A stretch of DNA of 34,377 nucleotides from Oscillospiraceae bacterium (GTDB lineage: Bacteria; Bacillota; Clostridia; UMGS1810): positions 1 through 34,377 of the forward strand of contig SVJL01000007.1 in NCBI GenBank assembly GCA_015068985.1, written 5' to 3'. Shown one piece after another: positions 2,829 to 29,752 of this stretch. Under the pieces are notes generated by a model. That model searched no databases. It was not told the DNA's origin and worked only from the letters and a program-made list of their open reading frames with translations. The translations under genes were made by a program, and so were the position numbers. The first letter of the stretch is position 1. Every line of letters begins with the position of its first letter.

Positions 2829-3004
2829 TTAGAGTTCGAGTGCCTTTTTGTATCTTGCAATTTCACTATCTATTACATATCTTACCTGACGGATTTTCCA
2901 TTCGAGATGTCATTTATCGGTCATATAAAGCATTGACGGTTCCCAACCAAGACGAGAATCCTTTTCTACAAGAGGAATTGGTGTCATTTACATTTACAAG
3001 TTCT
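2829..3004 (-). repeat. Relict 3' end of the 703-aa glycosidase gene (duplication scar)
   Basis: These bases between the two nagA copies are a diverged second copy of the last ~170 bp of the glycosidase gene (compare 4140-4311). They include its stop codon and the short gap before nagA. One base is inserted near 2980 relative to the intact gene, destroying the reading frame. At the upstream edge the three sequences (glycosidase tail, nagA copy 1 end and this junction) share the 10-base string AGAACTTGTA on the minus strand, marking the recombination point. This is therefore a scar of a tandem duplication, not a gene. Confidence 0.9.
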
Positions 3005-4125
3005 CCGCCAAGGATTACCTTTTTGACGTTGAACATATCATCTGTGAAAACAAAATCGGCACGTTTACCTGCCTCTATTGAACCAATTTCATCATCCATA
3101 CCAATTGCTTTTGAAGGGTTTGTGGATGCCATCAAGAATGCCTGAGCAATGCCGCAGTTGGTGTGAGTCATAATATTACGACACGCCATATCCATAGTGA
3201 GTTTACTGCCTGAAAGTCCACCCTTTGGGTCAAAGTTGAGATCGGTTATGTGAGAATATTTTTCGGGCGAAGGATTTTTATGGGCTGTGCTATCAGTTAT
3301 CAACATTATTTTGTCAAGACCTTTATTTTTCAGAACAAATCTCTGCATAAAGGGTGCAACGTGAATAGCACATGAATCACAAATCATTTCGCAATACATA
3401 TCGGAAGTGTAGAGTGCATATTCATCGGGACCGCATTTTCTCACACCTCTCCAGCTATTTGGGCCGGTGGCATTGGTTACATGGGTCATTATGGTGGGTG
3501 TGTAGATTCCGAGTGACTGAATTTCTTCAATTGATGCCTCACTGTGACCAAGTGCAAATTTTACATTTGGATTAACCTTGCGGGCATATTTCATAAATTC
3601 AACAAGTCCTTCTCTTTCGGGTGCGACTGCCCACACTTTAACAATTTCTCCCGCTTCTTCAACCAACGGCTTGTATTCATCGGATTTTATAGGATGACGC
3701 CATGGATTGATATGGCTGTTGGCACCATAGTCAGGATTAATATAGGGGCCTTCCATATATATGCCACGGATGTTTTTAGTCACTGCCATGTTTTTCTTAA
3801 TGGTCTTTATGCCATCGAGTAATGCTTCAAAATTCAGGCGTGGTGACAATGTTGCAAGAACGGTTGTTTCGCCATGATTCAGAAAATGCTCTGCTGCTAT
3901 GACAGGATTTTCTTCAAAATGGAAACCCCCACCTCCGTGGACGTGGATGTCGACAAAACCCGGACCTACATAGGTACCACATGCATCAATTATTTCGGCA
4001 TCGGAAGGGATTTCAATCTCTGACTTTTTACCTACAGCGGCAATTCTATCATTTTCTATGAGAATCACGCCGTCCCAGATGATTCCATCTGTTGTTACAA
4101 CGCGTGCATTTGTTATAGCTTTCAT
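2914..4125 (-). CDS. nagA: N-acetylglucosamine-6-phosphate deacetylase, copy 2, with recombinant C-terminal tail
   Basis: This 403-aa paralogue of the downstream nagA aligns to it without gaps over 377 residues. All metal and catalytic motifs are kept: DIHVHGGGGFHF, MEGP, GHSEAS, THVTNAT, LITDST. It lacks the normal stop. After GGELV the frame runs into the relict glycosidase tail, adding NVNDT (the glycosidase's own frame) and then 21 out-of-frame residues ending in NALYDR. The extra 26 residues are a by-product of the duplication and probably not functional; whether they affect folding is unknown. The start has GGAGGA eight bases upstream, and that ribosome binding site begins right after the stop of the glycosidase gene, so the two are translationally close. 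The GGGGFHF segment makes this the more canonical NagA of the pair. Confidence 0.85.
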   Translation of the reverse strand: MKAITNARVVTTDGIIWDGVILIENDRIAAVGKKSEIEIPSDAEIIDACGTYVGPGFVDIHVHGGGGFHFEENPVIAAEHFLNHGETTVLATLSPRLNFEALLDGIKTIKKNMAVTKNIRGIYMEGPYINPDYGANSHINPWRHPIKSDEYKPLVEEAGEIVKVWAVAPEREGLVEFMKYARKVNPNVKFALGHSEASIEEIQSLGIYTPTIMTHVTNATGPNSWRGVRKCGPDEYALYTSDMYCEMICDSCAIHVAPFMQRFVLKNKGLDKIMLITDSTAHKNPSPEKYSHITDLNFDPKGGLSGSKLTMDMACRNIMTHTNCGIAQAFLMASTNPSKAIGMDDEIGSIEAGKRADFVFTDDMFNVKKVILGGELVNVNDTNSSCRKGFSSWLGTVNALYDR

Positions 4126-4139
4126 TACAGCTCCTCCAA

Positions 4140-6251
4140 TCAGAGTTCCAAAGCTTTTCTGTATTTACCGATTTCTGTGTCGATTACATATCTTACCTGA
4201 CGGATTTTCCATTCGAGATGCCATTTGTCGGTCATGTAAAGCATTGACGGTTCCCAACCAAGACGGGAATCCTTTTCTACAAGAGGAATTGTGTCATTTA
4301 CATTTACAAGTTCTTCTTCCAGAAGAGCTTCCATATTGTCATAAACTTCAGACATAGCTTCTTTTGTAGTTGTAACATTCATCTGACAAATGAGCATAAA
4401 CCATTTTTTTGCATTAATGCCCGTTTTTACGCAGTTGGTCATAAAGTGACCCAGGTTTTTAAGTTCATCGGTCTTTGCATTTGCATCAGGAAGGTCAGAA
4501 AGCAAGGCTGTACCCTTTTCCATAAGTCCGAGCATTTTTTCGAGAGATTTGATTTCTTCACCAATTCTTAAACCTACAGGCGAAATTCGGTGGTCGCATA
4601 CATTTCTATAGGTCATCTCAATAATTCGATTGCCAAAATACGCATCAGGATCAGCGGGTATCATACAACCGAGAGGCTGTGGCAAAGCTTTGCCCACTGA
4701 CATATTGAAAGGATATGATGGACCTACTCTGAATGCACCATACTGATCGGAATCGCTTGGAATATAATATCTTATAGCTTCGCTGTAGCATTTTAAAGCT
4801 TCGTTGACTTTGTCATAGTTTGTTTCGCCAAATTCGGAAACAAGCACTTTTTTGAGAATGACCTCCATAGGTTCTCTTGGTTCTAAGAATGCGTGCTTAC
4901 CAAACTTACTGATAAATGATGGGGTGAAGCCATAATGGTGACATTCCATAATGCCGGAAAGACCCCATTCATCATGGGCCTTGAGCATATTTTCATAACG
5001 CTTCATCCACTGATAAGGCATGGGGAGATATGGAACTACGCCAAAATCCCATGTGAGACCGCCTGAGTTTGTCATAGAATAAAGCGGTATGCCGTTCTTT
5101 TTGGCCGCAACAGCTTCGCTCTTGAAATATTTACCGGGACCTTCAAAGGAAAGTGTGTAATCACAGCATCTGCCTTTTGCACCATTTGCATATGGGATGT
5201 GTTCGGCCTGCTCAAAGGTTGCCTGAACGCTTATGTCATCCGGAAGACTTTCGATGAGTTTTACTCTTATGTCTTCAGGCTGACTGCCCCAGTTGTAGGT
5301 CCAGAAAACGATGTCGGCATCGGGGCGATATTTTCTGATGATTTTTTTGATGAAATTAAGCCAGATGGGATAGTCATAGCAAGGATACCAACCCGAACTT
5401 AATTTGCCTGTGGGAATGCCATCGACGGTTGTTTCAAAATATCTGCCTTTTGAAACATGAGGATCTTTACTTGGAAATTCAACCGATTCGCCAACCAAAG
5501 TGACACCTTTAAGGCCGGGGCATTCTCTGAAAAGTCTGCCGTAGGTGTTTTCGTAATAGGCTTCGGCTTCGGGATCTTCGGGGCTTTTCTCACTCAAAAG
5601 CTTACTGTAGGCATACACATCGAGACCGTATTTTGCGGCACGCTGTATGAGATCATTAAAATTTAAATAACCAAAGGAAGTTTGATTAATATCTTTTGTG
5701 AAAACCAAAATCGCATCTCTGCCTTCGTGAGCAACGCGGGCAAGATATTCGTCGGGATACTCATCAAGGCCATAGCCTGAGTGAACCATCTGTGGTGAAA
5801 AAACCGGTTTTTTCTTTATAATGCCGTATTCCATGACGGGAGCTTTGGCAAATGTCATGAGATCTTCTATGTAATAGAGAGCTTGTGCTGCACCGCGTTC
5901 ATCGAAGGCGACGATTTTGATGCCGTCTTTGTCGGTGTTTATCATAAAGCCTTTATATGTGGCATATTCATCCAATTGAACACCGCAGTTTTCAGCTAAG
6001 TCGATACAGATTTCTGCATCATCGCCAAATGTGATGCCTGCTCCTATTTTCATTGAGGTTTTAAGATAATCTGCGAAATCTTCGCCAGCGGTCGTCAAAA
6101 CCACTCCGGCGTCTTGCGGAATTTTGATATGAACAATATCTTTAAGTTCAAATTCGTTATCATTTGCTTTGCGGGAAACATTTCGAATGTCCGGCTCATG
6201 AACTTTGAGAAGTCTTTCTCTGAACTGATATTTAGTTTCAATTTTTGTCAT
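4140..6251 (-). CDS. Probable intracellular glycoside hydrolase with GH20/GH67-type N-domain
   Basis: This 703-aa protein has no signal peptide. Residues about 40-135 resemble the non-catalytic alpha/beta domain that precedes the TIM barrel in GH20, GH67 and GH84 enzymes, ending in the typical DERGAAQALYYIEDLM element (117-132). A barrel-like region follows from about residue 145, with conserved-looking GESVEFP (E254-E257), DADIVFWTYNWG and GIMECHHYG strands, then a helical C-terminal part. I cannot assign a GH family. Its position immediately before nagA (15 bp) suggests it releases N-acetylhexosamines or GlcNAc-6-P from an imported or recycled sugar. Its last ~170 bp were duplicated along with nagA. 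The start has AAGGGG upstream and a good promoter 50 bp away. Function is inferred from context. Confidence 0.6.
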   Translation of the reverse strand: MTKIETKYQFRERLLKVHEPDIRNVSRKANDNEFELKDIVHIKIPQDAGVVLTTAGEDFADYLKTSMKIGAGITFGDDAEICIDLAENCGVQLDEYATYKGFMINTDKDGIKIVAFDERGAAQALYYIEDLMTFAKAPVMEYGIIKKKPVFSPQMVHSGYGLDEYPDEYLARVAHEGRDAILVFTKDINQTSFGYLNFNDLIQRAAKYGLDVYAYSKLLSEKSPEDPEAEAYYENTYGRLFRECPGLKGVTLVGESVEFPSKDPHVSKGRYFETTVDGIPTGKLSSGWYPCYDYPIWLNFIKKIIRKYRPDADIVFWTYNWGSQPEDIRVKLIESLPDDISVQATFEQAEHIPYANGAKGRCCDYTLSFEGPGKYFKSEAVAAKKNGIPLYSMTNSGGLTWDFGVVPYLPMPYQWMKRYENMLKAHDEWGLSGIMECHHYGFTPSFISKFGKHAFLEPREPMEVILKKVLVSEFGETNYDKVNEALKCYSEAIRYYIPSDSDQYGAFRVGPSYPFNMSVGKALPQPLGCMIPADPDAYFGNRIIEMTYRNVCDHRISPVGLRIGEEIKSLEKMLGLMEKGTALLSDLPDANAKTDELKNLGHFMTNCVKTGINAKKWFMLICQMNVTTTKEAMSEVYDNMEALLEEELVNVNDTIPLVEKDSRLGWEPSMLYMTDKWHLEWKIRQVRYVIDTEIGKYRKALEL

Positions 6252-6303
6252 ATAGGTTTAGCCCCTTACATATTATGGTTAAATATAATTATAAAGTTAA
6301 TTA

Positions 6304-6333
6304 ATTGTACAATAAAAGCAATCCCGGTGTCAA
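6304..6333 (-). promoter_or_regulatory. Promoter of the glycosidase-nagA operon
   Basis: TTGACA (6328-6333) and TACAAT (6304-6309) with an 18-bp spacer lie in the gap behind the acetyltransferase gene. Predicted transcription start is near 6297, giving a leader of about 45 nt before the glycosidase start. Confidence 0.55.
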
Positions 6334-6361
6334 GATAACATATATGGAAAAGCTATCTGTA

Positions 6362-6793
6362 TCACAGGGAAAAATCCATGCCGACATGCTCTATACTGTC
6401 TTCCAGATATACATCTGTTGTAACAACAAAGCCAAACTTTTCATAAAAGCCTATGGCATACTTTTGAGCACTTATGTGAATAGTTTTGAAATCGAAAGCA
6501 TCTTTTACTGCATCGATGGATTTTTCCATGAGCTTTCTGCCAAGTCCATCACCATGAGAAAGTGTGAGTACTCTGCCAAGCTTTATGGTGTCGTCGTCGA
6601 TGCGGAAGGCTCTCAGATAGGCAAGAATTTTTTCACCTTCACAAAAGAAACAATGAAGAGCATCGTAGTCGATATCGTCAAGATCCTGATAGGCTACCTT
6701 CTGCTCTACGGTAAAGATTTCGAGACGGGATTTTATGATTTCGTATAACTCATGAGTGGTTAGTTCACTGAAGAATTTTGCATTGAATTCCAT
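6362..6793 (-). CDS. ElaA-family GNAT N-acetyltransferase
   Basis: This 143-aa GNAT-fold protein matches the ElaA subfamily. RLEIFTVEQKVAYQDLDDID (residues 23-42) is the ElaA hallmark. KLGRVLTLSHGDGLGRKLMEK (about 71-91) carries the acetyl-CoA-binding strand and Q/RxxGxG/A-type turn (here HGDGLGRK). HISAQKYAIGFYEKFGFV (about 106-123) is the C-terminal strand and helix, and the closing EHVGMDF also matches. Length is close to ElaA (about 150 aa). The acceptor of ElaA proteins is not established. It appears to stand alone: about 70 bp separate it from the flavoprotein gene upstream, and a promoter for the next operon lies beyond its 3' end. Ribosome binding site GGAAAG. Confidence 0.8.
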   Translation of the reverse strand: MEFNAKFFSELTTHELYEIIKSRLEIFTVEQKVAYQDLDDIDYDALHCFFCEGEKILAYLRAFRIDDDTIKLGRVLTLSHGDGLGRKLMEKSIDAVKDAFDFKTIHISAQKYAIGFYEKFGFVVTTDVYLEDSIEHVGMDFSL

Positions 6794-6861
6794 TTTTTCA
6801 CATACTTTCCTGATGGTATAAAAAGCAGGACAAACTCTCTGTTTGACCTGTTTTAATTTTG

Positions 6862-7767
6862 TTAGTTAATGTAGTCGCAGGCAGCAAGAGCTGCTATAGC
6901 ACCATCGGATGCTGCTGTGGCAACCTGACGGATGCGTTTGGAACGGCAATCGCCTGCGACAAATATACCGTCCAGATTTGTTTTGCAAGTTTCGTCGGAG
7001 TCAACATAACCCCAGTCGTTGAGATTGACACATGATGCAAAAGGCTCATTCTGAGGGATGAGACCTATAGCAACGAAAACGCCGTCTACATCGATGGATG
7101 TATCTTCACCATTTGTCTGATTGGTAATGGTTATGCCTTTGAGTTCAGAGTCTGCAATCAGACTTTTCACGGTGGCATTTGTTATAATTTCAACATTGTC
7201 TTTTGAGTAAAGCTGATCGGCAAGTTTTTTCTCACCTGTAAGGTGGTCGAGATTCTGAACTACATATACCTTTTTGCAGGTGTCAGACAAAAGAATTGCT
7301 TCCTGTAGTGCAGAGTTGCCTCCGCCTATTACTGCAACCGTTTTGCCTTCGTAAAAAGCTCCGTCGCACACTGCACAAAAAGATATACCATTGCCGATGA
7401 AATCTTCTTCTCCATCTATGCCGAGAAGTCTGTGCTTTGTGCCTGTGGCAATAATAATTGCCTTGGCAGAAAAATCACCTTCGTCGGTCTTTACGGTTTT
7501 TATATCACCGTCTTCGATGCTGAGTGCTTCGCAGCATTCGACATCGGCACCAAGATTCATAGCCTGCTCGATGAGTTTTTCTGCAAATTCATTGCCTGTT
7601 ACACTGACAAAACCCGGTATGTTTTCAACCTTTGGAGACGAGGTTATCTGTCCGCCAAAGGTACCTTTTTCCAAAACAAGAACCTTTTTATTGGCACGAA
7701 GAGCATATATAGCGGCGGTCAGCCCCGCAGGGCCGCCGCCTATGATTATGATGTCGTATAAATTCAC
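6862..7767 (-). CDS. Thioredoxin-reductase-like FAD disulfide oxidoreductase
   Basis: This 301-aa low-molecular-weight thioredoxin reductase family protein has an N-terminal FAD-binding GGGPAGLTAAIYALRA (10-25), redox-active CAVC (131-134) in the expected CDGAFY context, a second dinucleotide-binding GGGNSALQEA (148-157) and the C-terminal FAD motif GIFVAGDCR followed by QVATAASDGAIAA. The HRRxxxRA motif that grips the NADPH 2'-phosphate in classical TrxB is replaced by QNLDHLTGEKKL, so the electron donor may be NADH or a ferredoxin-type system. It begins with GTG five bases after the stop of nrdD, implying coupled translation. Its likely partner is the glutaredoxin-like domain at the end of that NrdD. 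Length is normal (about 300-320 aa). Confidence 0.8.
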   Translation of the reverse strand: MNLYDIIIIGGGPAGLTAAIYALRANKKVLVLEKGTFGGQITSSPKVENIPGFVSVTGNEFAEKLIEQAMNLGADVECCEALSIEDGDIKTVKTDEGDFSAKAIIIATGTKHRLLGIDGEEDFIGNGISFCAVCDGAFYEGKTVAVIGGGNSALQEAILLSDTCKKVYVVQNLDHLTGEKKLADQLYSKDNVEIITNATVKSLIADSELKGITITNQTNGEDTSIDVDGVFVAIGLIPQNEPFASCVNLNDWGYVDSDETCKTNLDGIFVAGDCRSKRIRQVATAASDGAIAALAACDYIN

Positions 7768-7771
7768 ACTA

Positions 7772-10132
7772 TCACACTTTCAGATACTTTTTGATGTTGG
7801 ATACGCCTGCATATTTGGAAACTACTCCGTTTTCTATGCAAACGAGTGTGGGAGCCTGACGGATTTCAAATTGTTCTGCAAGCTCTTTGTTTTCATTTGC
7901 CAGAATCTTCTCATATACTACACCCTCTTTGTCGAGAATGGAGCATGCAATCTTACAGTTGGGGCAGGTTGCTGTGGTGAAGAGGAAAATGCCATCGGAA
8001 GCATCGACTTTTTCCTGAGTTTTCACTTCAGGAGCAGCTGCCTTTTCGGATTTGTCGAGATGGGATTTGGAAATGTCGTATACTTTTCTTTCGGAATATT
8101 CCTGAGATTTACCATCGTTCCAGTTCTGAACGGGACGATAGTAACCTGTGATACGGCTGTAAACCTCTGTTGTTTCACCGCATTCGGGGCAAGTGAAGGC
8201 TTCGCCTGCGATGTAGCCGTGGTTTTTACATACGGAATATGTGGGAGAAATTGAATAGTATGGCAAAGAGTAGTTTTCTGCAATTTTGCGCACCAAGTTT
8301 GCAGCAGCTTTCCAGTCGGGAAGCTTTTCACCGAGGAATGCATGGAATACTGTGCCTGATGTGTAGAGAGTCTGGAGACCATCCTGAATGTCGAGAGCTG
8401 TGAATACATCTTCTGTGTAGCCAACGGGAAGATGTGAACTGTTGGTGTAGTAAGGAGTATCTTTTTCACCTGCAGTGATGATGCGTGGATAGTGCTTAAG
8501 GTCGTGACGGGCAAGACGATATGCAGTGGATTCGGCAGGTGTAGCTTCGAGGTTATAGAGATCGCCATATTCAACCTGATAGTCGGAAAGTCTTTCACGC
8601 ATATGATTGAGCACTTCTTTGGTGAATTCCTGAGCTTTTTCGTTTGTAAGGTCTTCGCCAAGCCATTTAGCATTGAGACAAGCTTCGTTCATACCAACAA
8701 GACCGATTGTGGAGAAGTGGTTGTCGAAGGTGCCGAGATAGCGTTTTGTGTAAGGGTAAAGACCTGACTCTAAGAGCTTGGAGATAACTGTTCTCTTAAC
8801 CTTTAAGGAACGGGCAGAAATGTCCATCATATGGTCAAGGCGTTTGTAGAATTCCTCTTCGTTTTCGGAAAGGAAAGCGATACGGGGCATATTGATGGTA
8901 ACAACACCAACAGAGCCTGTGGACTCACCGCTACCGAAGAAACCGCCTGATTTTTTACGGAGTTCACGAAGGTCGAGACGGAGACGGCAACACATACTTC
9001 TTACATCGCTTGGTTCCATATCACTGTTGATATAGTTGGAGAAATAAGGTGTACCGTATTTGGAGGTCATCTCGAAGAGAAGACGGTTGTTTTCTGTGTC
9101 GGACCAGTCGAAATCACGAGTGATGGAATATGTGGGGATAGGATACTGGAAGCCTCTGCCGTTGGCATCGCCATCGATCATAATTTCGATGAAGGCTTTA
9201 TTGATAAGATCCATTTCCTTCTGACAGTCTTTATATTTGAAGTCAACTTCCTTGCCGCCAACGATACAGTTGAGTTCTGCAAGGTCATTTGGAACCACCC
9301 AGTCGAGAGTGATGTTGGAAAATGGAGCCTGTGTGCCCCATCTGCTTGGTGTGTTTACGCCGTAGATGAAGGATTCGATGCATTTTTTAACCTGATCGTA
9401 GGAAAGGTTGTCCACCTTAACGAAAGGTGCAAGGTAGGTATCGAATGAAGAGAATGCCTGAGCGCCTGCCCATTCATTCTGCATGATGCCAAGGAAGTTA
9501 ACCATCTGGTTACAGAGTGTGGCAAGATGGCTTGCGGGGGAAGAGGTAATCTTGCCGGGAACACCGCCAAGACCTTCCTGAATAAGCTGTTTTAATGACC
9601 AGCCTGCACAGTAGCCTGTGAGCATGGAAAGGTCATGAATGTGAATATCGGCATTTCTGTGGGCATTGCCGATTTCTTCGTCATAAATCTCGGAGAGCCA
9701 GTAGTTTGCAGTGATGGCACCCGAGTTACTGAGAATGAGACCGCCTACAGAATAAGTAACGGTGGAATTCTCTTTAACACGCCAGTCGTTTATGCGGAGA
9801 TAGTTGTCCACAATTGCTTTATAGTCAACCATAGTGGCGTTGATATTACGGATTTTTTCTCTCTGGCGACGGTAAATGATGTATGCTTTGGCAACATCAT
9901 CATAGCCTGCCTTGATAAGTACAGTTTCGACACTGTCCTGAATGTGTTCTACTTCGATATGATCATTTTCAATTTTTGGTTCAAATTCGGCAGTAACCTT
10001 AAGAGCCAAAAAGTCAATGATATCCTTGTTGTATTGTTTTTGACAAGCATCAAAAGCCTGATATATAGCAGTGCTTATTTTGGAAAGGTCAAAGTCTACA
10101 ATCTTTCCGTCTCTTTTTATTACGTTGTACAT
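7772..10132 (-). CDS. nrdD: Anaerobic ribonucleoside-triphosphate reductase with C-terminal glutaredoxin-like domain
   Basis: This 786-aa class III ribonucleotide reductase makes dNTPs under anaerobic conditions with a glycyl radical. The N-terminal ATP-cone (residues 1-95, starting MYNVIKRDGKIVDF) is the allosteric activity site, followed by the ten-stranded barrel core. A zinc site is formed by C635, H638, C648 and C651, and the glycyl radical is expected at G663 (RITGYYRPVQNWNDGKSQEY). After a charged linker (about 686-712) comes a 74-residue glutaredoxin/NrdH-like domain with redox CPNC (723-726) and the cis-proline motif QAPTL. The fused domain suggests a thiol-driven rather than formate-driven enzyme. 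The start at 10132 was chosen over an in-frame codon 30 bases upstream because AAGGAGG lies directly in front of it. The activating enzyme is upstream and a reductase is downstream. Confidence 0.9.
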   Translation of the reverse strand: MYNVIKRDGKIVDFDLSKISTAIYQAFDACQKQYNKDIIDFLALKVTAEFEPKIENDHIEVEHIQDSVETVLIKAGYDDVAKAYIIYRRQREKIRNINATMVDYKAIVDNYLRINDWRVKENSTVTYSVGGLILSNSGAITANYWLSEIYDEEIGNAHRNADIHIHDLSMLTGYCAGWSLKQLIQEGLGGVPGKITSSPASHLATLCNQMVNFLGIMQNEWAGAQAFSSFDTYLAPFVKVDNLSYDQVKKCIESFIYGVNTPSRWGTQAPFSNITLDWVVPNDLAELNCIVGGKEVDFKYKDCQKEMDLINKAFIEIMIDGDANGRGFQYPIPTYSITRDFDWSDTENNRLLFEMTSKYGTPYFSNYINSDMEPSDVRSMCCRLRLDLRELRKKSGGFFGSGESTGSVGVVTINMPRIAFLSENEEEFYKRLDHMMDISARSLKVKRTVISKLLESGLYPYTKRYLGTFDNHFSTIGLVGMNEACLNAKWLGEDLTNEKAQEFTKEVLNHMRERLSDYQVEYGDLYNLEATPAESTAYRLARHDLKHYPRIITAGEKDTPYYTNSSHLPVGYTEDVFTALDIQDGLQTLYTSGTVFHAFLGEKLPDWKAAANLVRKIAENYSLPYYSISPTYSVCKNHGYIAGEAFTCPECGETTEVYSRITGYYRPVQNWNDGKSQEYSERKVYDISKSHLDKSEKAAAPEVKTQEKVDASDGIFLFTTATCPNCKIACSILDKEGVVYEKILANENKELAEQFEIRQAPTLVCIENGVVSKYAGVSNIKKYLKV

Positions 10133-10162
10133 ACGACAACCTCCTTGCAGTGAATTAATCAC

Positions 10163-10191
10163 ATTGTACCATATATATTGTGGCTTGTCAA
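10163..10191 (-). promoter_or_regulatory. nrdD promoter
   Basis: TTGACA (10186-10191), a 17-bp spacer and TACAAT (10163-10168) lie between nrdG and nrdD, so nrdD and the flavoprotein gene can be transcribed independently of nrdG. Expected transcription start is near 10156, giving a leader of about 24 nt. The spacer is occupied by an NrdR-like box. Confidence 0.75.
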
Positions 10192-10215
10192 GTTAAAAAA
10201 CACAATATATTGAAT
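10168..10215 (-). promoter_or_regulatory. Tandem NrdR-like operator boxes
   Basis: Two 16-bp near-palindromes match the NrdR-box pattern acaCwATATATwGtgt: 10168-10183 (ACCATATATATTGTGG on the plus strand) and 10200-10215 (ACACAATATATTGAAT). Their starts are 32 bp apart, about three helical turns, as is usual for NrdR sites. The first lies between the -35 and -10 of the nrdD promoter and the second just upstream of the -35, ending next to the nrdG stop codon. This layout fits repression by NrdR when dATP is abundant. No nrdR gene is in the window. Confidence 0.75.
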
Positions 10216-10216
10216 T

Positions 10217-10894
10217 TTATCTAATCTTAACAAATTTCACATTGTCGCGAGCACCAAGTGCCATTTCTTCTAGGGTTTCAGGGCTTACGGGTGTCATACC
10301 ACCAGCCAAAATGTTACCCGAATCCACGAAATTTTGTACGAAATACCTTTTTGCTCCTGAAATCCATTTTGAAATCGACACTATATCTTGTGGTGTGTGA
10401 AGTTCGTTTGTGACAGTGGTACGGAATTCATAGTCAACATCTGATGAAAGAAGAAAATCTATGCTTTCCTGAACTTTATCAAGATTTGTCTTTGCACCTG
10501 CGGTGATGTCATATTTTTCAGGTGTGTTTTTTATATCCATGGCAACATAGTCGACAAGCGATGCGTTTACAAGTTCTTTAAGCCGTTCCGGGAAAGTGCC
10601 GTTGGTGTCGACCTTTACATCGTAACCAAGCTCTTTGACTTTTTTTAAAAACTCCCCTATTCCCTGATGCATCAGCGGTTCTCCGCCGGTGACGGACACA
10701 CCGTCTAAAACACCCTTTCGCTTTTTGAGATAGTCTAAAATCTCATCTTCAGTAATTTGTTCGGCACAGTTTTCTACCAAAAACGAATTATGACAGAAAG
10801 GGCAACGGAAATTACAACCCTTTGTAAAGACAATGCAAGCAACATGTGAAGGATAATCAAGCACAGTTAATTTTTGAAAACCACCAAAATCCAT
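10217..10894 (-). CDS. nrdG: Anaerobic ribonucleotide reductase activating enzyme (radical SAM)
   Basis: This 225-aa radical SAM protein generates the glycyl radical on NrdD using S-adenosylmethionine and a 4Fe-4S cluster. The cluster-binding C27-x3-C31-x2-C34 (CNFRCPFC) is present, together with the SAM-binding VTGGEP motif (about 69-74) and DTNG further on. The opening MDFGGFQKLTVLDYPS is typical of the clostridial NrdG2/PflA-like subgroup. The gene lies upstream of nrdD, the reverse of the common nrdD-nrdG order, and is separated from it by a promoter with NrdR-like boxes. GGAGGT sits in front of the start. An inverted repeat lies further upstream. Confidence 0.9.
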   Translation of the reverse strand: MDFGGFQKLTVLDYPSHVACIVFTKGCNFRCPFCHNSFLVENCAEQITEDEILDYLKKRKGVLDGVSVTGGEPLMHQGIGEFLKKVKELGYDVKVDTNGTFPERLKELVNASLVDYVAMDIKNTPEKYDITAGAKTNLDKVQESIDFLLSSDVDYEFRTTVTNELHTPQDIVSISKWISGAKRYFVQNFVDSGNILAGGMTPVSPETLEEMALGARDNVKFVKIR

Positions 10895-10911
10895 AATGAC
10901 CTCCGCTTTTT

Positions 10912-10957
10912 ATGTTATAATAATTTTTTGCAGTTAAAAAATCTATACTTATAACAT
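10912..10957. promoter_or_regulatory. Inverted repeat upstream of nrdG
   Basis: Perfect 9-bp arms ATGTTATAA (10912-10920) and TTATAACAT (10949-10957) flank an A/T-rich 28-base centre. It lies between the symporter gene and nrdG, where the nrdG promoter is expected, and does not match the NrdR-box pattern. It could be an operator or a leader hairpin. Confidence 0.35.
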
Positions 10958-10979
10958 ATATCATTTGGAGATCAAAGTC

Positions 10980-11014
10980 AATAAGAAAAAGCCATAGAAG
11001 CAAAATGCTTTCTA
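10980..11014 (-). terminator. Rho-independent terminator after the symporter gene
   Basis: On the minus strand TAGAAAGC, a short T-rich loop and GCTTCTA form a stem (one bulged base) that overlaps the symporter stop codon. It is followed by TGGCTTTTTCTT. Confidence 0.5.
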
Positions 11015-12775
11015 CAGCTTTATTTTTTCTTCATATACTGACAATATCGGTTTAAGCGGTTTAGCTTTGATTTTGCGATTTACATAGTTTTCTGTTATCT
11101 TAAAAACAGTCGGACACAAAAGAACCAGCGCCAAAAGATTCGGGACTGCCATAAAACCATTAAAAATATCGGAAAGATTCCATACAAGGTCAAGTTTTAC
11201 ATTGGCACCCAGAAAGGTGCAAAGTGAAAATATGGTTTTATAAACAAATCCCGACGAGCCTTTGAATAGATATTGCCATGCTTTAAGTCCGTAAAACGAC
11301 CACCCGACTATGCTCGAAAATGCAAAAAGAAAAATGGCAACGGCTAAAATCCTTACTGCAAAAGGTCCGAATTTTTGTGTAAAAGCAAGTGAAACAAGCG
11401 AAGCTCCCTCTATCTTTTCAAGCTTTACGGCGTTTATGGGGGCATTTTTATCTTTTGTTTCTTTGCCATCGGCATCAAGTGAAATACCCCTTACTGTCAT
11501 TACATTGGTGTGAGTATTGCGGGTGGGTGAAAGGTTTTCCTTTTTTATATATACATCAAAAGGAATACCTGACTCAGGAGAAACCGTGTACCGTTCAGCT
11601 TGATCATCACAAGCGCGGGATGCGACATACTGTGCGGAAAGCGATGAATCTACAAGATATAATTCCTGAGCTTTTTTATCATTACTTATGTTCACAATTA
11701 TCGCATCTTTAGTTATGCCGTTCAAAGCTTTTTCCAATGATACAGCAGGACAAACTGTCGACAAAAGCACGAAAGCAGTGAGGGTGCAAATTATCATGGT
11801 ATCGAAAAACACAACAAATATACCTACCATACCCTGAACACAAGGCTCTTTTGTACCCGATGAAGAATGAGCAAAAACTGCCGAACCAAGACCTGCCTCG
11901 TGGGAGCAAAGACCACGCCTGAATCCGACAGAAACAGCGCGTTTTACTAAAACGCCTCCCCCTGCTCCAGCAACAGAATCAAGAGAAAAAGCCGAAGAAA
12001 ATATGATTTTAAGCACATGAGTAATCTGTTCATGGTTAGAAAAAATTATCCAAAGAGAGCAAAACATATAAAATATTGCCATGGGTGGAACAAGTTTTTC
12101 TGTTGTACGGCCTATCCTGTTTGTGCCACCTATAATGATAATGATTACCCCGATGGCAATTGTTGTGCCGATTTTCAGTGACGAAAAGCCGAAAGTTGAT
12201 TCAAAAGCCATCGATATGGAATTGGCCTGAGCCATATTGCCCATACCAAAAGACACAAGAATGCAACAGATGCAGAATAAAACTGCAAGTGCATTTGAAA
12301 ACCATTTAAAAAATCTGCTCTTAGGAAAACTTTCGCGAATGTAATACATAGGTCCGCCATCGAACTTGCCGTCTGTAATTTTGCATCGATAATATATACC
12401 GAGCACATTTTCAGAATACGCCGTCATCATGCCAAAAAACGCCGACACCCACATCCAGAAAACAGCACCCGGACCACCCATAGCAATAGCGGTGGCTGTG
12501 CCTGTTATATTGCCTGTGCCTATGGTTGACGCAAGGGCAGTACACAGAGCCTGAAAGCGTGAAAGTCCTTCTTTTTGTGAGGATGGCACACTTTTAGAAA
12601 AAATAGTGCCTATGGAGGATTTCAGCCAATGAAAGAGATGAGAAATTTGAAAAAACTTTGTGCCGATTGTCATAAGTATACCAACGCCTAAAAGAAGAGC
12701 TATCATCGGCACTGACCATACAGCATCGCCAAGACAGGCACAAAAGCTGTTTAAACCGTCAAAAAATGTGTTCAT
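11012..12775 (-). CDS. Alanine/glycine:cation symporter (AGCS family) with an internal insertion
   Basis: This 587-aa polytopic membrane protein imports small amino acids with sodium or protons. AGCS signatures are clear: the first helix (about 20-38), ALASTIGTGNITGTATAIAMGGPGAVFWMWV (81-110, given here as two adjoining motifs around TIGTGNI and GGPGAVFW), FDGGPMYYI (138-146) and SHEAGLGSAVFAHSSS (291-306). Family members are usually 450-500 aa. The extra length is a hydrophilic insertion of about 110 residues (about 347-458) between the helix ending LLSTVCP and the next helix starting near residue 470, predicted to face one side of the membrane. No strong ribosome binding site precedes the start, and the sipL stop is only 17 bp upstream, so translation may depend on sipL. 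Confidence 0.85.
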   Translation of the reverse strand: MNTFFDGLNSFCACLGDAVWSVPMIALLLGVGILMTIGTKFFQISHLFHWLKSSIGTIFSKSVPSSQKEGLSRFQALCTALASTIGTGNITGTATAIAMGGPGAVFWMWVSAFFGMMTAYSENVLGIYYRCKITDGKFDGGPMYYIRESFPKSRFFKWFSNALAVLFCICCILVSFGMGNMAQANSISMAFESTFGFSSLKIGTTIAIGVIIIIIGGTNRIGRTTEKLVPPMAIFYMFCSLWIIFSNHEQITHVLKIIFSSAFSLDSVAGAGGGVLVKRAVSVGFRRGLCSHEAGLGSAVFAHSSSGTKEPCVQGMVGIFVVFFDTMIICTLTAFVLLSTVCPAVSLEKALNGITKDAIIVNISNDKKAQELYLVDSSLSAQYVASRACDDQAERYTVSPESGIPFDVYIKKENLSPTRNTHTNVMTVRGISLDADGKETKDKNAPINAVKLEKIEGASLVSLAFTQKFGPFAVRILAVAIFLFAFSSIVGWSFYGLKAWQYLFKGSSGFVYKTIFSLCTFLGANVKLDLVWNLSDIFNGFMAVPNLLALVLLCPTVFKITENYVNRKIKAKPLKPILSVYEEKIKL

Positions 12776-12792
12776 ATACAGAGTTTAATCAA

Positions 12793-14334
12793 TCAGCTTT
12801 TTTGTCTTTTCGGAATTAAAACAGGCTTATCACCCAAGGTAGAACAGGAAGGGTCGAGCGAATTGATTTTTATTATTTCCTCGCATGTGGTGTTATATTT
12901 TTTTGCCACAGCCCAAATATCGGTACCCTTTGTCGGATAAAAAACAACTATACCTGCCTGAGAGTTTTTCCGAATCGGAGTGGTCTGATCCACACTGAAA
13001 TCAGTAATGATATTTACTTCTTCCATAAGGGTCAGTTTTGCATTTGCTTTTACAACAACACGGGTTTGTATTTCCCTTGAAGATGCAAGAGCAAAGCTAT
13101 GGCTTACTAAGCTTACAAATGCATCGATTGAAGAGTTTAAATCTTTTGACAGACAGGGAATCTGCATTTCAAACGGAGTGGTATGTTTTTTGCGGTTAAG
13201 GCAATTCTCCTCATCGGTATAGATAACGACATTTTCAACATTACCTTTAAGATTGATACAGGTTTCATCTTTATTTACCGACAAACATGAAACCATAGCA
13301 TCCATATAATGTATTTTAGAAATCTGTGCATCTGAATTTGAAAGTGATATGGTATCTTTAACTGTTGTTTCAAAAGGATTGCATTTTTCTATGTGAAGAA
13401 GATGTACCTTTCGGCTTTTCACATTATAGCTATAGTCTGGGCTGTAAATATCGGAAGCGAAAATAAAGTCTTTGTTTTCATAGGCAGAAAGGTTACCTTT
13501 CAGTTTGAAATCTACATCCAGTCTTACCCCTGAATCTGATGGCACAGTACTGCAGGAGGAATCTGCAACCTCAAAACTTGAAATGACAGACTGCTGTGCC
13601 TGCATTGCATTGATATCAACTATTTCTGTAAAGGCTGATTCTGTTTCATATGTAGAAATTTCACCGTCGGACGAATAAAAAACGGAAATGTTGGCGTTGC
13701 CTTTTACTATAGCTTTATTATTGACGGTTTTTATATCGGAGACATCGGGACGAATGTCGATGTCAAAAATTTCGCAATTGTCTTCTGTCACCGGAAGAGT
13801 AAGGCTGTCGGACAAATTAATTTCAAAATTTTCTGAAGCTACGAGAATGTCAAAATTGTATTCTTTCGATTTTGACGGAATGTCAGAGTTTTCGCCGGTA
13901 CCGCTTATGGCATCTATATCCGACCCTCTATACGCATCAACACAAAGGTCAAGAGTGGCACCTACTGAAAGTTTTCTTGAATTTCTGACATCAAAGCTTG
14001 TGTCTGAGACATTGCATAAGCTCCTGGGGACGGTGTTTTCATCAGCACCCGGCATATCAGCCTGGTGATTAAAGGGAAGAGAGTATTCGATAGAATAAAT
14101 CTTATTCATATCACCCTCACCCACATAAAGTATGGTAAATTTTGTTTTGCCCGAAAAGATAACCTTGTCCTTTCTCATATAACACTCATTCACATCGGCT
14201 AAGGCTTTGACATTTAAAACTCTCACGATGTCGGGACGGGTGTCGGGAACGATTACATCGGCTTCGAGATTTGTCTTTGTTCTGAGTGTCTTTTTATACT
14301 CACATACGGAAACGGGGCTTTTGGTAAACTCCAT
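12793..14334 (-). CDS. sipL: SipL-type spore morphogenesis protein (DUF3794 + LysM)
   Basis: This 513-aa protein is composed of DUF3794/SPOCS-type beta-rich repeats over about residues 1-455 and a C-terminal LysM domain (about 463-513: TKGTDIWAVAKKYNTTCEEI then INSLDP and PVLIPKR). That architecture is SipL, the clostridial partner of SpoIVA that localises coat assembly at the forespore surface through its LysM domain. The N-terminal ADVIVPDTRPDIVRVL segment is a strong DUF3794 marker. The start has GAAGGGATG at good distance. A sigma-E-like promoter is visible upstream, fitting mother-cell expression. The gene follows the rplT terminator and is directly followed by an amino-acid symporter. 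Confidence 0.85.
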   Translation of the reverse strand: MEFTKSPVSVCEYKKTLRTKTNLEADVIVPDTRPDIVRVLNVKALADVNECYMRKDKVIFSGKTKFTILYVGEGDMNKIYSIEYSLPFNHQADMPGADENTVPRSLCNVSDTSFDVRNSRKLSVGATLDLCVDAYRGSDIDAISGTGENSDIPSKSKEYNFDILVASENFEINLSDSLTLPVTEDNCEIFDIDIRPDVSDIKTVNNKAIVKGNANISVFYSSDGEISTYETESAFTEIVDINAMQAQQSVISSFEVADSSCSTVPSDSGVRLDVDFKLKGNLSAYENKDFIFASDIYSPDYSYNVKSRKVHLLHIEKCNPFETTVKDTISLSNSDAQISKIHYMDAMVSCLSVNKDETCINLKGNVENVVIYTDEENCLNRKKHTTPFEMQIPCLSKDLNSSIDAFVSLVSHSFALASSREIQTRVVVKANAKLTLMEEVNIITDFSVDQTTPIRKNSQAGIVVFYPTKGTDIWAVAKKYNTTCEEIIKINSLDPSCSTLGDKPVLIPKRQKS

Positions 14335-27193: not shown

Positions 27194-27222
27194 ATAATAT
27201 ACCAAAAGTTATTTATTGTCAA
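27194..27222 (-). promoter_or_regulatory. mscL promoter
   Basis: TTGACA (27217-27222), a 17-bp spacer and TATTAT (27194-27199). The -35 lies inside the 3' end of the upstream GTPase-NYN gene, so mscL can be transcribed separately. Confidence 0.75.
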
Positions 27223-29752
27223 TAGTTGTCGAAATAAAACGCCGCATTTCTTTTTCGACCAAGTCCAGCTCTGCTCTGAATTCATCGGCACTGACACGCA
27301 CGCCTCCGTTGCCGAAAACAATCATCTGCTCTTCCCTGTCGGAGGTGGCAACGCGAACACGATAAGTTTTGCTGAGTTCCTTCGAAGTTTTTTCGATGTA
27401 TGTGTCGGCAGTTTCGGCTTCTTTAGTGTAGACAACAGTGACATTGCCGACTCGTTCAACCTCGCCGATGTTACCTTTGACTTTGTAGGCATCAAAAACT
27501 ACGATAACGTTATTTTTCTTCATTGCCTGATAGTTGCACAAACGGTTTATGAGGATGTTTCGTGCGGCATCGGGGTTATCGTCGGAAATCTTTTTAAGTT
27601 CGTCCCAAGCATAAATTATATTGTAGCCATCTATCAAAAGATATTCGAGACCAAGATTGATTTGCTGACTTTTGTAGGGCTTTGCCGTGCGCTCAGCAGC
27701 ATAGTTTTTTGGTTTGTCGGTCTTTATTTTACCATAGGTTTGCTCAAAAATACGCATAAGCTCATCGTCGCTTGCTGTGATTGAACCACCAAGGTGACCG
27801 GAAGCTTTAGGAACATACTCTGCATGGGCAGAATCTGCAAGGGGAAGGTGCATATGGTCAAACACCTCATCCCAACTAACCACAAAACCTGCTCCGTGAG
27901 CACAGAAAACAGAGTCGGGGGTGTTGTCCTGATCGGAAAGAGGATTATAGCCAATCTGCCCGATTACCTCATCGGCATTTTTGCAAGGCTCATAGCCCGA
28001 AAAGCTGAGGCTAAGTCTGCCTGTGCCGTGAGTGTAGGCAACAACTTCTTTATGATAGCCGCTTATTGCCGAAACAGGTGCCTTCCCTTTTATTCGTGTA
28101 ATATCACCACCCGAAACAGGAGGCTCAAAGTCTGCACCCATTTGTTGAAAATCGGTGAGTGCTCTGCCCGTTGATGAGGTGGGCAGTTCTAACACGAAGC
28201 TATAGTATGGCTCAAGCAGCACGCTTTTCGCCTGCATAAGTCCTTGACGAACGGCTCTGTAGGTCGCCTGACGAAAATCGCCGCCGTCGGTGTGTTTGTT
28301 GTGGGCTCTGCCATTTACGAGAGTTATTTTTATGTCGGTTATTGGCGAACCTGTTAAAACTCCAAGGTGGTCTTTTTCGGAAAGGTGAGTCAGAATGAGT
28401 CGTTGCCAGTTGCGTGCAAGCACATCTTCACTGCATTTTGAAGATATGCTAATACCCGAACCCGGTTCTCCGGGTTCCATAAGAAGATGAACCTCCGAAT
28501 AGTGACGAAGAGGCTCATAGTGCCCCACTCCCTCAACCGAATTGGAAATTGTCTCTTTATAGAGAATACTGCCCTCTTCAAACTCCACCTCAAGACCAAA
28601 TCTGTCGGCAAGAACACGTTTTAACACTTCAAGCTGAATTTCGCCCATTATGCGAACGTTTATCTTTTCGGGAATGCCGCCAAGACGTACCTGCATTTGG
28701 GTTTCTTCCTGCTCCAGACGTCTGAACATGGGGAGAGCACGGGTGATATCCATATTATCGGGCAAACGCACCGAATAGGTAAACACCGGTTCCGAGAAAA
28801 AACGTTCTTCGCCAACATCCTCACCAATGCCGTCACCTGCTGATATTTTGGATAGGCCGGTAACTGCACATACCTCACCTGATGAAACCTCCTGAACGGA
28901 GGTGTATTTATTTCCGGAATATATGCGGATTTCATTAATCTTTTCGCTCCAGCCGTCTTTGGTTATGAGGGTTTTAACCTTCAGGGAACCGCCGGTAATT
29001 TTGAGATGAGCAAGACGAGTGCCTTTTTCGTCTTCAGTGATTTTGAAAACTCTTGCTCCAAAGGCCTCGGGATAAGTTTTTTGGAGAGTATAGTCGTTGA
29101 TGGCTGCAAGAAACTCCTTGACACCCTCGTTTTTCAGAGCAGAGCCAAAGAAACAAGGGAAAATCTTTCGGGAATTAACAGCTTTTATCAAAGATTCGGA
29201 GCAAATGGTGCTATCTTCAAGATATTCGTTCATAAGGCTGTTGTCGAGAAGTGCTGCATTTTCATAAAACTCGTCATCTAAGGCGGAAAAATCCACACAT
29301 CCCTCCGACAAGCCTGTTTTTAAATTGTCTATAACAGCTTCCTTGCCCTCGTTTGGCAAGTCCATTTTGTTAACAAAAATAAAGACGGGAATATTGTAGT
29401 GAGAAAGCAGACTCCAAAGGGTGCGGGTGTGGCTCTGAACTCCGTCAGTGCCGCTGACAACCAAAACCGCATAGTCAAGAACACAAAGAGTACGCTCGGT
29501 TTCGGCAGAAAAATCTACGTGACCTGGAGTGTCGACAAGAGTTATACGGGTGTTATCAATATTGAACACTGCCTGCTTGGAAAAAATGGTTATGCCACGG
29601 TCACGTTCAATTTCGTTGGTATCGAGAAAAGCATCGCCATGGTCCACTCTGCCAAGCTTTGATATCTGACCTGCATTATATAAAAAACTTTCGGAAAGGG
29701 TTGTCTTGCCAGAGTCTACATGAGCAAGAATACCGATGGTTATTTGCTTCAT
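27209..29752 (-). CDS. Tet(M)/EF-G-like translation GTPase fused to a YacP/Rae1-type NYN domain
   Basis: This is an 847-aa two-part protein. The first ~640 residues are a ribosomal-protection-type translational GTPase: P-loop AHVDSGKTT (10-18), RGITI (52-56), DTPGH (74-78), NKMD (128-131), then EF-G domains II-V. The domain IV tip reads NGRAHNKHTDGGDFRQAT where Tet(M) has its YSPVSTP drug-displacing loop, so tetracycline resistance is doubtful. After a linker, residues about 702-847 form a NYN/PIN-like ribonuclease domain of the YacP family (LLIDGYNIIYAW with D708 and N711; VVFDAYK with D754; ETADTYIE with D783; VATSDREEQ with D805). B. subtilis YacP (Rae1) cleaves mRNA in the ribosomal A site. 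The fusion implies a factor that enters the A site and cuts the message. Own promoter; ribosome binding site GAGGCGAT. Confidence 0.88.
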   Translation of the reverse strand: MKQITIGILAHVDSGKTTLSESFLYNAGQISKLGRVDHGDAFLDTNEIERDRGITIFSKQAVFNIDNTRITLVDTPGHVDFSAETERTLCVLDYAVLVVSGTDGVQSHTRTLWSLLSHYNIPVFIFVNKMDLPNEGKEAVIDNLKTGLSEGCVDFSALDDEFYENAALLDNSLMNEYLEDSTICSESLIKAVNSRKIFPCFFGSALKNEGVKEFLAAINDYTLQKTYPEAFGARVFKITEDEKGTRLAHLKITGGSLKVKTLITKDGWSEKINEIRIYSGNKYTSVQEVSSGEVCAVTGLSKISAGDGIGEDVGEERFFSEPVFTYSVRLPDNMDITRALPMFRRLEQEETQMQVRLGGIPEKINVRIMGEIQLEVLKRVLADRFGLEVEFEEGSILYKETISNSVEGVGHYEPLRHYSEVHLLMEPGEPGSGISISSKCSEDVLARNWQRLILTHLSEKDHLGVLTGSPITDIKITLVNGRAHNKHTDGGDFRQATYRAVRQGLMQAKSVLLEPYYSFVLELPTSSTGRALTDFQQMGADFEPPVSGGDITRIKGKAPVSAISGYHKEVVAYTHGTGRLSLSFSGYEPCKNADEVIGQIGYNPLSDQDNTPDSVFCAHGAGFVVSWDEVFDHMHLPLADSAHAEYVPKASGHLGGSITASDDELMRIFEQTYGKIKTDKPKNYAAERTAKPYKSQQINLGLEYLLIDGYNIIYAWDELKKISDDNPDAARNILINRLCNYQAMKKNNVIVVFDAYKVKGNIGEVERVGNVTVVYTKEAETADTYIEKTSKELSKTYRVRVATSDREEQMIVFGNGGVRVSADEFRAELDLVEKEMRRFISTTIDNK

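Follow-up and report, generated by a model that had tools for sequence, protein, structure and literature searches.

NrdR is described as a repressor of whole ribonucleotide reductase (RNR) operons, and NrdR control of nrdD is already known. The locus described here raises a narrower question, i.e. whether NrdR could govern a class III reductase gene while the gene for its activase lies outside the controlled unit. The locus is found in the window, a 34,377-nucleotide stretch (contig C49) of an Oscillospiraceae genome of 2.02 Mb (145 contigs, 82.9% complete), where the - strand carries, in order, agcS (an amino-acid carrier), nrdG2, nrdD and trxB.

A boxed promoter between nrdG2 and nrdD

The domains of the nrdD product and the adjoining activase gene mark a class III RNR (Table 1). 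In an ordinary nrdDG operon nrdG is downstream of nrdD and one promoter serves both genes; here nrdG2 is upstream of the boxed promoter and is separated from nrdD by a gap of 84 bp. The ATG at which nrdD starts is preceded by GGAGG; the GTG at 10162 given in the list of open reading frames was rejected as a start, as it lies upstream of the start expected from the TTGACA-17-TACAAT promoter. trxB begins 4 bp past nrdD, so the controlled unit is probably nrdD-trxB; trxB had been absent from the first-pass annotation. The glutaredoxin-like domain fused to NrdD (7772-8070, - strand) lies beside trxB, which suggests a built-in electron donor for the class III RNR; the domain is apparently absent from some relatives at 73-76% identity.

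Table 1. Features of the nrdG2-nrdD locus, listed from upstream to downstream on the - strand (window positions).
Feature	Position	Strand	Match or score
Intrinsic-terminator-like hairpin with T tract, between agcS and nrdG	10980..11024	-	-15.1 kcal/mol, z -4.5; 0/200 shuffles as good
Weak candidate nrdG promoter, TTGACT-17-TATGTT	10953..10981	-	9/12; no better than chance matches in the scan
nrdG2, radical-SAM activase, upstream of the control point	10217..10894	-	TIGR02495, 219.5 bits (cut-off 131)
Candidate NrdR box 1, ATTCAATATATTGTGT, ends 8 bp upstream of -35	10200..10215	-	14/16 to the consensus (2 mismatches)
nrdD promoter, TTGACA-17-TACAAT, with TG ahead of -10	10163..10191	-	11/12
Candidate NrdR box 2, CCACAATATATATGGT, within the -35/-10 spacer	10168..10183	-	13/16 to the consensus (3 mismatches)
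nrdD, class III RNR with ATP cone and C-terminal glutaredoxin-like domain (CPNC)	7772..10132	-	PF13597, PF03477, PF00462; NF006126, 1135 bits
trxB, thioredoxin-reductase-like protein	6862..7767	-	TIGR01292, 331 bits (slightly below the cut-off of 343); PF07992

Boxes were scored against ACACWATATATWGTGT, which we take to be the NrdR box consensus. The first-pass annotation had described two NrdR-type 16-mers 32 bp apart on a TTGACA-17-TACAAT promoter, and we recovered exactly this arrangement: start to start, the boxes are 32 bp apart (i.e. a 16-bp spacer), and they begin at -24 (box 1) and +8 (box 2) relative to the -35 element of the nrdD promoter. The spacer falls within the NrdR ranges of 14-17 or 24-27 bp given in PMC12051234, where binding to the 14-17 bp class was observed for four NrdRs and high affinity required two boxes. 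The promoter ties for best among 22 promoter-like sites in 6000-13000, a number little above that in shuffles (mean 16.1, sd 4.1), and the TTGAC of its -35 element is invariant in a 12-row alignment.

The pair exceeds chance and single sites do not. At an allowed spacer the window pair sums to 27/32; the best sum per shuffle was 20-24 in 200 dinucleotide shuffles of the whole window, and a sum of 27 was reached in none of 5000 shuffles of 10101-10260 (largest 25). Single sites with at most 3 mismatches are not significant genome-wide, occurring at 55 places compared with 87 for a reversed control pattern. A third NrdR-like 16-mer, with 2 mismatches, lies inside nrdG at 10378-10393, 178 bp away from box 1. 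It was rejected as a member of an array; it is little conserved and is probably a by-product of the coding sequence, because only 3/17 nrdG copies (window included) score at least 13 at the matching codons. An RNA structure in the nrdG-nrdD gap was likewise rejected, the folding energy being no better than that of shuffles (z -0.05).

Placement of the box pair among related loci

We compared placement of the pair in the nrdG-nrdD gap and in front of nrdG among relatives of the locus. The first set comprised 84 loci (the best 80 of 594 confirmed public loci and four from the family of the window, its own included), of which 69, with the window among them, were scored for both placements, counting a pair at a sum of 22/32 or more and a gap as long at 80 bp or more. 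The 15 loci dropped (12 with no nrdG found upstream, some of them on short stretches, and three with gaps of more than 700 bp) all have a pair of at least 22 within 400 bp before nrdD. In the 69 scored loci, drawn from that best 80 of 594 and the window's family, the gap holds a pair in 47 of the 49 long-gap and 0 of the 20 short-gap loci, the latter count being partly forced by length because short gaps partly cannot hold a pair; the 300 bp upstream of nrdG, where counts are not forced by length, hold one in 19/20 short-gap and 13/49 long-gap loci. Control windows contain a pair in 0/336 cases inside nrdD and 4/332 further upstream. The core pattern published in PMC12051234, applied to the same 69 loci with short and long spacers only, is found in the gap of 34/49 long-gap and 0/20 short-gap loci (again partly a matter of length) and upstream of nrdG in 6/49 and 15/20 respectively; its control counts are 16/336 inside nrdD and 8/332 further upstream. 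Among five loci followed by name it passes in L023 and fails in the window, L021, L025 and L028.

A second set of 66 further loci was drawn from the class; near-copies were the only redundancy screened for, and some of its loci belong to the clade of the window itself. Forty of its stretches were hand-picked, i.e. 28 of 29 close-type matches with an nrdD start and no locus (G139 was omitted) and 12 of 58 of a type with roughly 50% identity. Thirty-four loci were scored by the same rule as before, the others being one near-copy (L117), two with nrdG cut by a contig end, 17 with no nrdG upstream and 12 with nrdG downstream. The gap holds a pair in 16/18 long-gap and 0/16 short-gap loci (the zero being partly forced by length, as above), and the region upstream of nrdG does so in 2/18 and 11/16 respectively. 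Among the excluded loci, a pair of at least 22 precedes nrdD in 16 of the 17 with no upstream nrdG and in 10 of the 12 with nrdG downstream. All the NrdDs fetched for the type with roughly 50% identity (12/12) have nrdG downstream, and their match ends before the glutaredoxin domain. nrdR was found in 30 of the 34 genomes tested; of the four in which it was not detected, G130 (L131) has no pair and G115, G028 and G279 have one, incomplete assemblies being a possible but uncertain explanation. The window type of NrdD is a patchy cassette, present in 4/16 genomes of the window's family, and an order-level search returned the same 16 genomes.

When no spacing was imposed, neighbouring sites (at least 12/16) were 31-33 bp apart in 31/59 cases and 40-43 bp apart in 11/59; three- and four-turn spacings are both bound by NrdR in vitro (PMC12051234). 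A promoter of at least 10/12 is present in 46 of the 47 loci with a gap pair, and box starts cluster at -24 from its -35 element, with 19/46 loci having a site of at least 12/16 exactly there and lesser clusters near -56 and +8; in 6/46 the five registers tested all lack a site of at least 11/16. In the front class, 6/17 loci have the -24 register before nrdG, and no register stood out on the nrdG side of the 12 loci with both placements. Because boxes recur at -24 in both the gap and the front classes, the controlled promoter looks alike in the two, and it is its place in the gene order that differs.

A quick tree was built from 132 NrdD proteins, of which 99 were scored; on it the gap-box state requires 14 changes, and branches of SH-aLRT support 95 or higher force at least 6 of them. 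The clade containing the window has 25 members and a support of 99, and a gap box is present in each of its 23 scored rows. A trade-off between gap and front placements was not significant in phylogenetically independent pairs. We tentatively propose, as a possibility somewhat short of an even chance, that evolution has used the NrdR-controlled promoter of this NrdD subfamily as a switch point, moving it repeatedly between a position before nrdG and one in the nrdG-nrdD gap, so that lineages change what dATP sensing governs, total RNR or the ratio of reductase to activase. Four records labelled Lentisphaerota (L063, L075, L076, L081) carry an nrdG-nrdD cassette that is nested among Clostridia in the tree and has a pair before nrdG, which suggests either horizontal transfer together with its regulation or misbinned contigs.

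Proposed control of nrdD-trxB and competing explanations

We consider it likely that the gap holds an NrdR-repressed promoter that drives nrdD-trxB only, with nrdG2 outside it, so that NrdD shifts relative to its activase. The anatomy of the promoter, the conservation and register of its boxes, the alternative placement in relatives and the presence of nrdR in the genome all support this reading, from which NrdR binding at this DNA, the transcript ends and a change in the ratio of NrdD to NrdG protein are predicted. The nrdR gene, a requirement of the first-pass annotation, is present on contig C139 (TIGR00244, 212 bits against a cut-off of 124.65). By eye, its translation has D15, R17, RRRR at 26-29 and R37, and has K rather than R at position 12; D15, R17, R26-R29 and R37 are residues named for DNA contact in PMC9110341. 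No pair indicative of NrdR autoregulation was found in the 160-bp stretch at the nrdR start (best sum 18).

At high dATP, an NrdR tetramer with ATP and dATP would grip both boxes, three helix turns apart, and with one box just upstream of -35 and the other in the -35/-10 spacer it would exclude RNA polymerase. When dATP drops, NrdR would release, and the near-consensus extended -10 promoter would yield extra NrdD and TrxB, the latter being the presumed electron-supply partner of NrdD. nrdG2, as its own unit after a terminator with a weak promoter candidate and no NrdR pair, would be weakly and steadily made. Its transcript, not being ended before nrdD, would probably give a basal nrdG-nrdD-trxB message, and NrdR would move NrdD above this basal level at roughly constant NrdG. 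Variable NrdD at constant NrdG would fit an activase that acts catalytically, and activated NrdD is reported to perform many turnovers without NrdG (PMC11226230).

The transcription signals around nrdG2 bear on how far the two genes are separated. The T-tract hairpin located past agcS makes it probable that nrdG2 begins a separate unit. Within 300 bp upstream of nrdG in the window we found no box pair (best sum 19), which, together with the near-consensus promoter before nrdD, places the activase gene outside the NrdR control point, and the first-pass annotation is borne out to this extent. Its further claim, that NrdR changes the NrdD:NrdG ratio, holds less firmly; the activase gene does lie outside the control point, but the ratio itself is a prediction and, as no terminator was found after nrdG and before nrdD in the window, basal read-through is likely and nrdD may partly depend on the nrdG transcript.

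An explanation that gives read-through the larger part is that nrdG, nrdD and trxB form one operon driven mainly from upstream of nrdG, with the gap boxes acting as a roadblock or marking a minor internal promoter, and NrdG and NrdD mostly co-varying. This would suit genes 84 bp apart with no terminator found between them in the window, as well as the pair in front of nrdG in nearly all short-gap loci of the first set (19/20), as in a true nrdGD operon, and the Thermotoga maritima locus, in which the two genes overlap and NrdR is listed for each (PMC4493059). We nevertheless think it unlikely: the strong promoter of the window is in the gap, the best candidate upstream of nrdG matches at only 9/12, and nrdG lacks an NrdR pair in front. 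Among the 35 loci with a pair in the gap only, a promoter of at least 11/12 is present in the gap in 26 (0.7% in shuffles) and before nrdG in 8 (0.4% in shuffles), and a terminator-like gap hairpin (-6 kcal/mol or better) is present in 13/35, compared with 1/12 loci of the both class, some of these hairpins being the box palindromes themselves. trxB is within 150 bp of nrdD in 62/84 loci of the first set (best 80 of 594 public loci included), and a box pair between nrdD and trxB was considered and rejected, a single pair (sum 22, in L038) having turned up among the loci with more than 60 bp there.

It is also improbable, in our judgement, that box 1 alone is real and box 2 is simply an AT-rich spacer plus an extended -10, with weak NrdR binding and partial escape from control. 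Box 1 has the conserved C-N8-G core; box 2 is without its G and has C-N9-G instead, and the published core pattern (PMC12051234) fails on the pair of the window, as a T occupies the core G position of box 2. The right half of box 2 bears the TG of the extended -10, and this sharing of bases may be why it is imperfect; a promoter-like TG is common at the +8 register across loci (T 29/46, G 28/46). In Streptomyces coelicolor, inverting the conserved GC pairs of one box lowered binding about 50-fold (PMC9110341), and loci without a -56 box show no significant improvement of the +8 site that would point to substitution (p 0.29 for the left half, 0.09 for the whole). The left half, ACACAA, is however not needed by the promoter, and it is kept in L021, L024, L025 and L031 and nearly so in the window and L028; furthermore, the pair sum lies beyond the shuffles, and a second nrdD promoter of this genome (contig C108) has the same TATATATGGT element 32 bp from a perfect box. 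That the match arose by chance in AT-rich DNA, or is the site of another palindrome-binding repressor, is very improbable given the pair statistics, spacing, register, controls and replication in the second set, even though, across the genome, single sites with at most 3 mismatches do not outnumber matches to the reversed pattern.

Other reductase loci, known systems and minor features

Three NrdD genes are encoded in the genome, and its assembled part yielded no match to the class I/II large-subunit family PF02867. The NrdDs on C108 and C135, like that of the window, have an adjoining nrdG, here of the TIGR02491 type; unlike in the window, nrdG follows nrdD, so that one promoter can serve both genes. 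The C108 perfect box is 32 bp from a 12/16 box on what appears by eye to be a TTGACA-17-TTAAAT promoter; the C135 unit, a possible NrdR target, has a consensus promoter, also by eye, but only a weak pair (10+12 = 22/32). The genome therefore holds the ordinary nrdDG layout beside the nrdG2-nrdD layout. The contrast with the usual nrdDG operon drawn in the first-pass annotation stands within this genome; among scored loci of the NrdD subfamily, however, the gap layout is the commoner one and no oddity.

NrdR pairs before nrdDG in Escherichia coli, Listeria and Streptococcus, and before nrdRJ and nrdAB in Streptomyces, are likewise two palindromic boxes, separated by a whole number of helix turns and lying at an RNR promoter in a genome encoding NrdR. 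The window differs from these in that the promoter is between the activase and reductase genes and has trxB, not nrdG, downstream. Thermotoga maritima shares the nrdG-first order and predicted NrdR control, but its genes overlap by 35 bp (PMC4493059), whereas those of the window are separated by the boxed promoter. We found no description of an NrdR promoter between nrdG and nrdD in the literature searched by title and start of abstract. According to PMC12051234, a 2025 NrdR survey joined RNR-annotated genes up to 300 nt apart and took 500 nt upstream of each group, so that gap sites would be passed over if nrdG was counted as an RNR gene, and scans of operon fronts may undercount NrdR sites. 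If NrdR does act on nrdD-trxB and spares the activase, dATP sensing in many anaerobes would tune the amount of reductase and not of activase, and the gap, front and both layouts among relatives would form a natural comparison set for coupling and uncoupling of the activase.

Several other features of the window were noted. The AgcS-like symporter (11012-12775, - strand) has 587 aa compared with a 424-position model, apparently owing to a long insertion midway through the family domain. Two tandem amidohydrolase genes (NagA-like by eye; 1680-2813 and 2914-4125, - strand) derive from a duplication; the repeat period is about 1312 bp, the copies are 79-89% identical over four pieces, and the 3' end of the neighbouring 703-aa gene is also part of the repeat. 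An 847-aa protein (27209-29752, - strand) has an EF-G-like translation GTPase (PF00009, EFG_IV, EFG_C; Tet(M)-like by eye) and a C-terminal YacP-like NYN domain (PF05991), a fusion of a translation GTPase with a possible ribosome-linked RNase.
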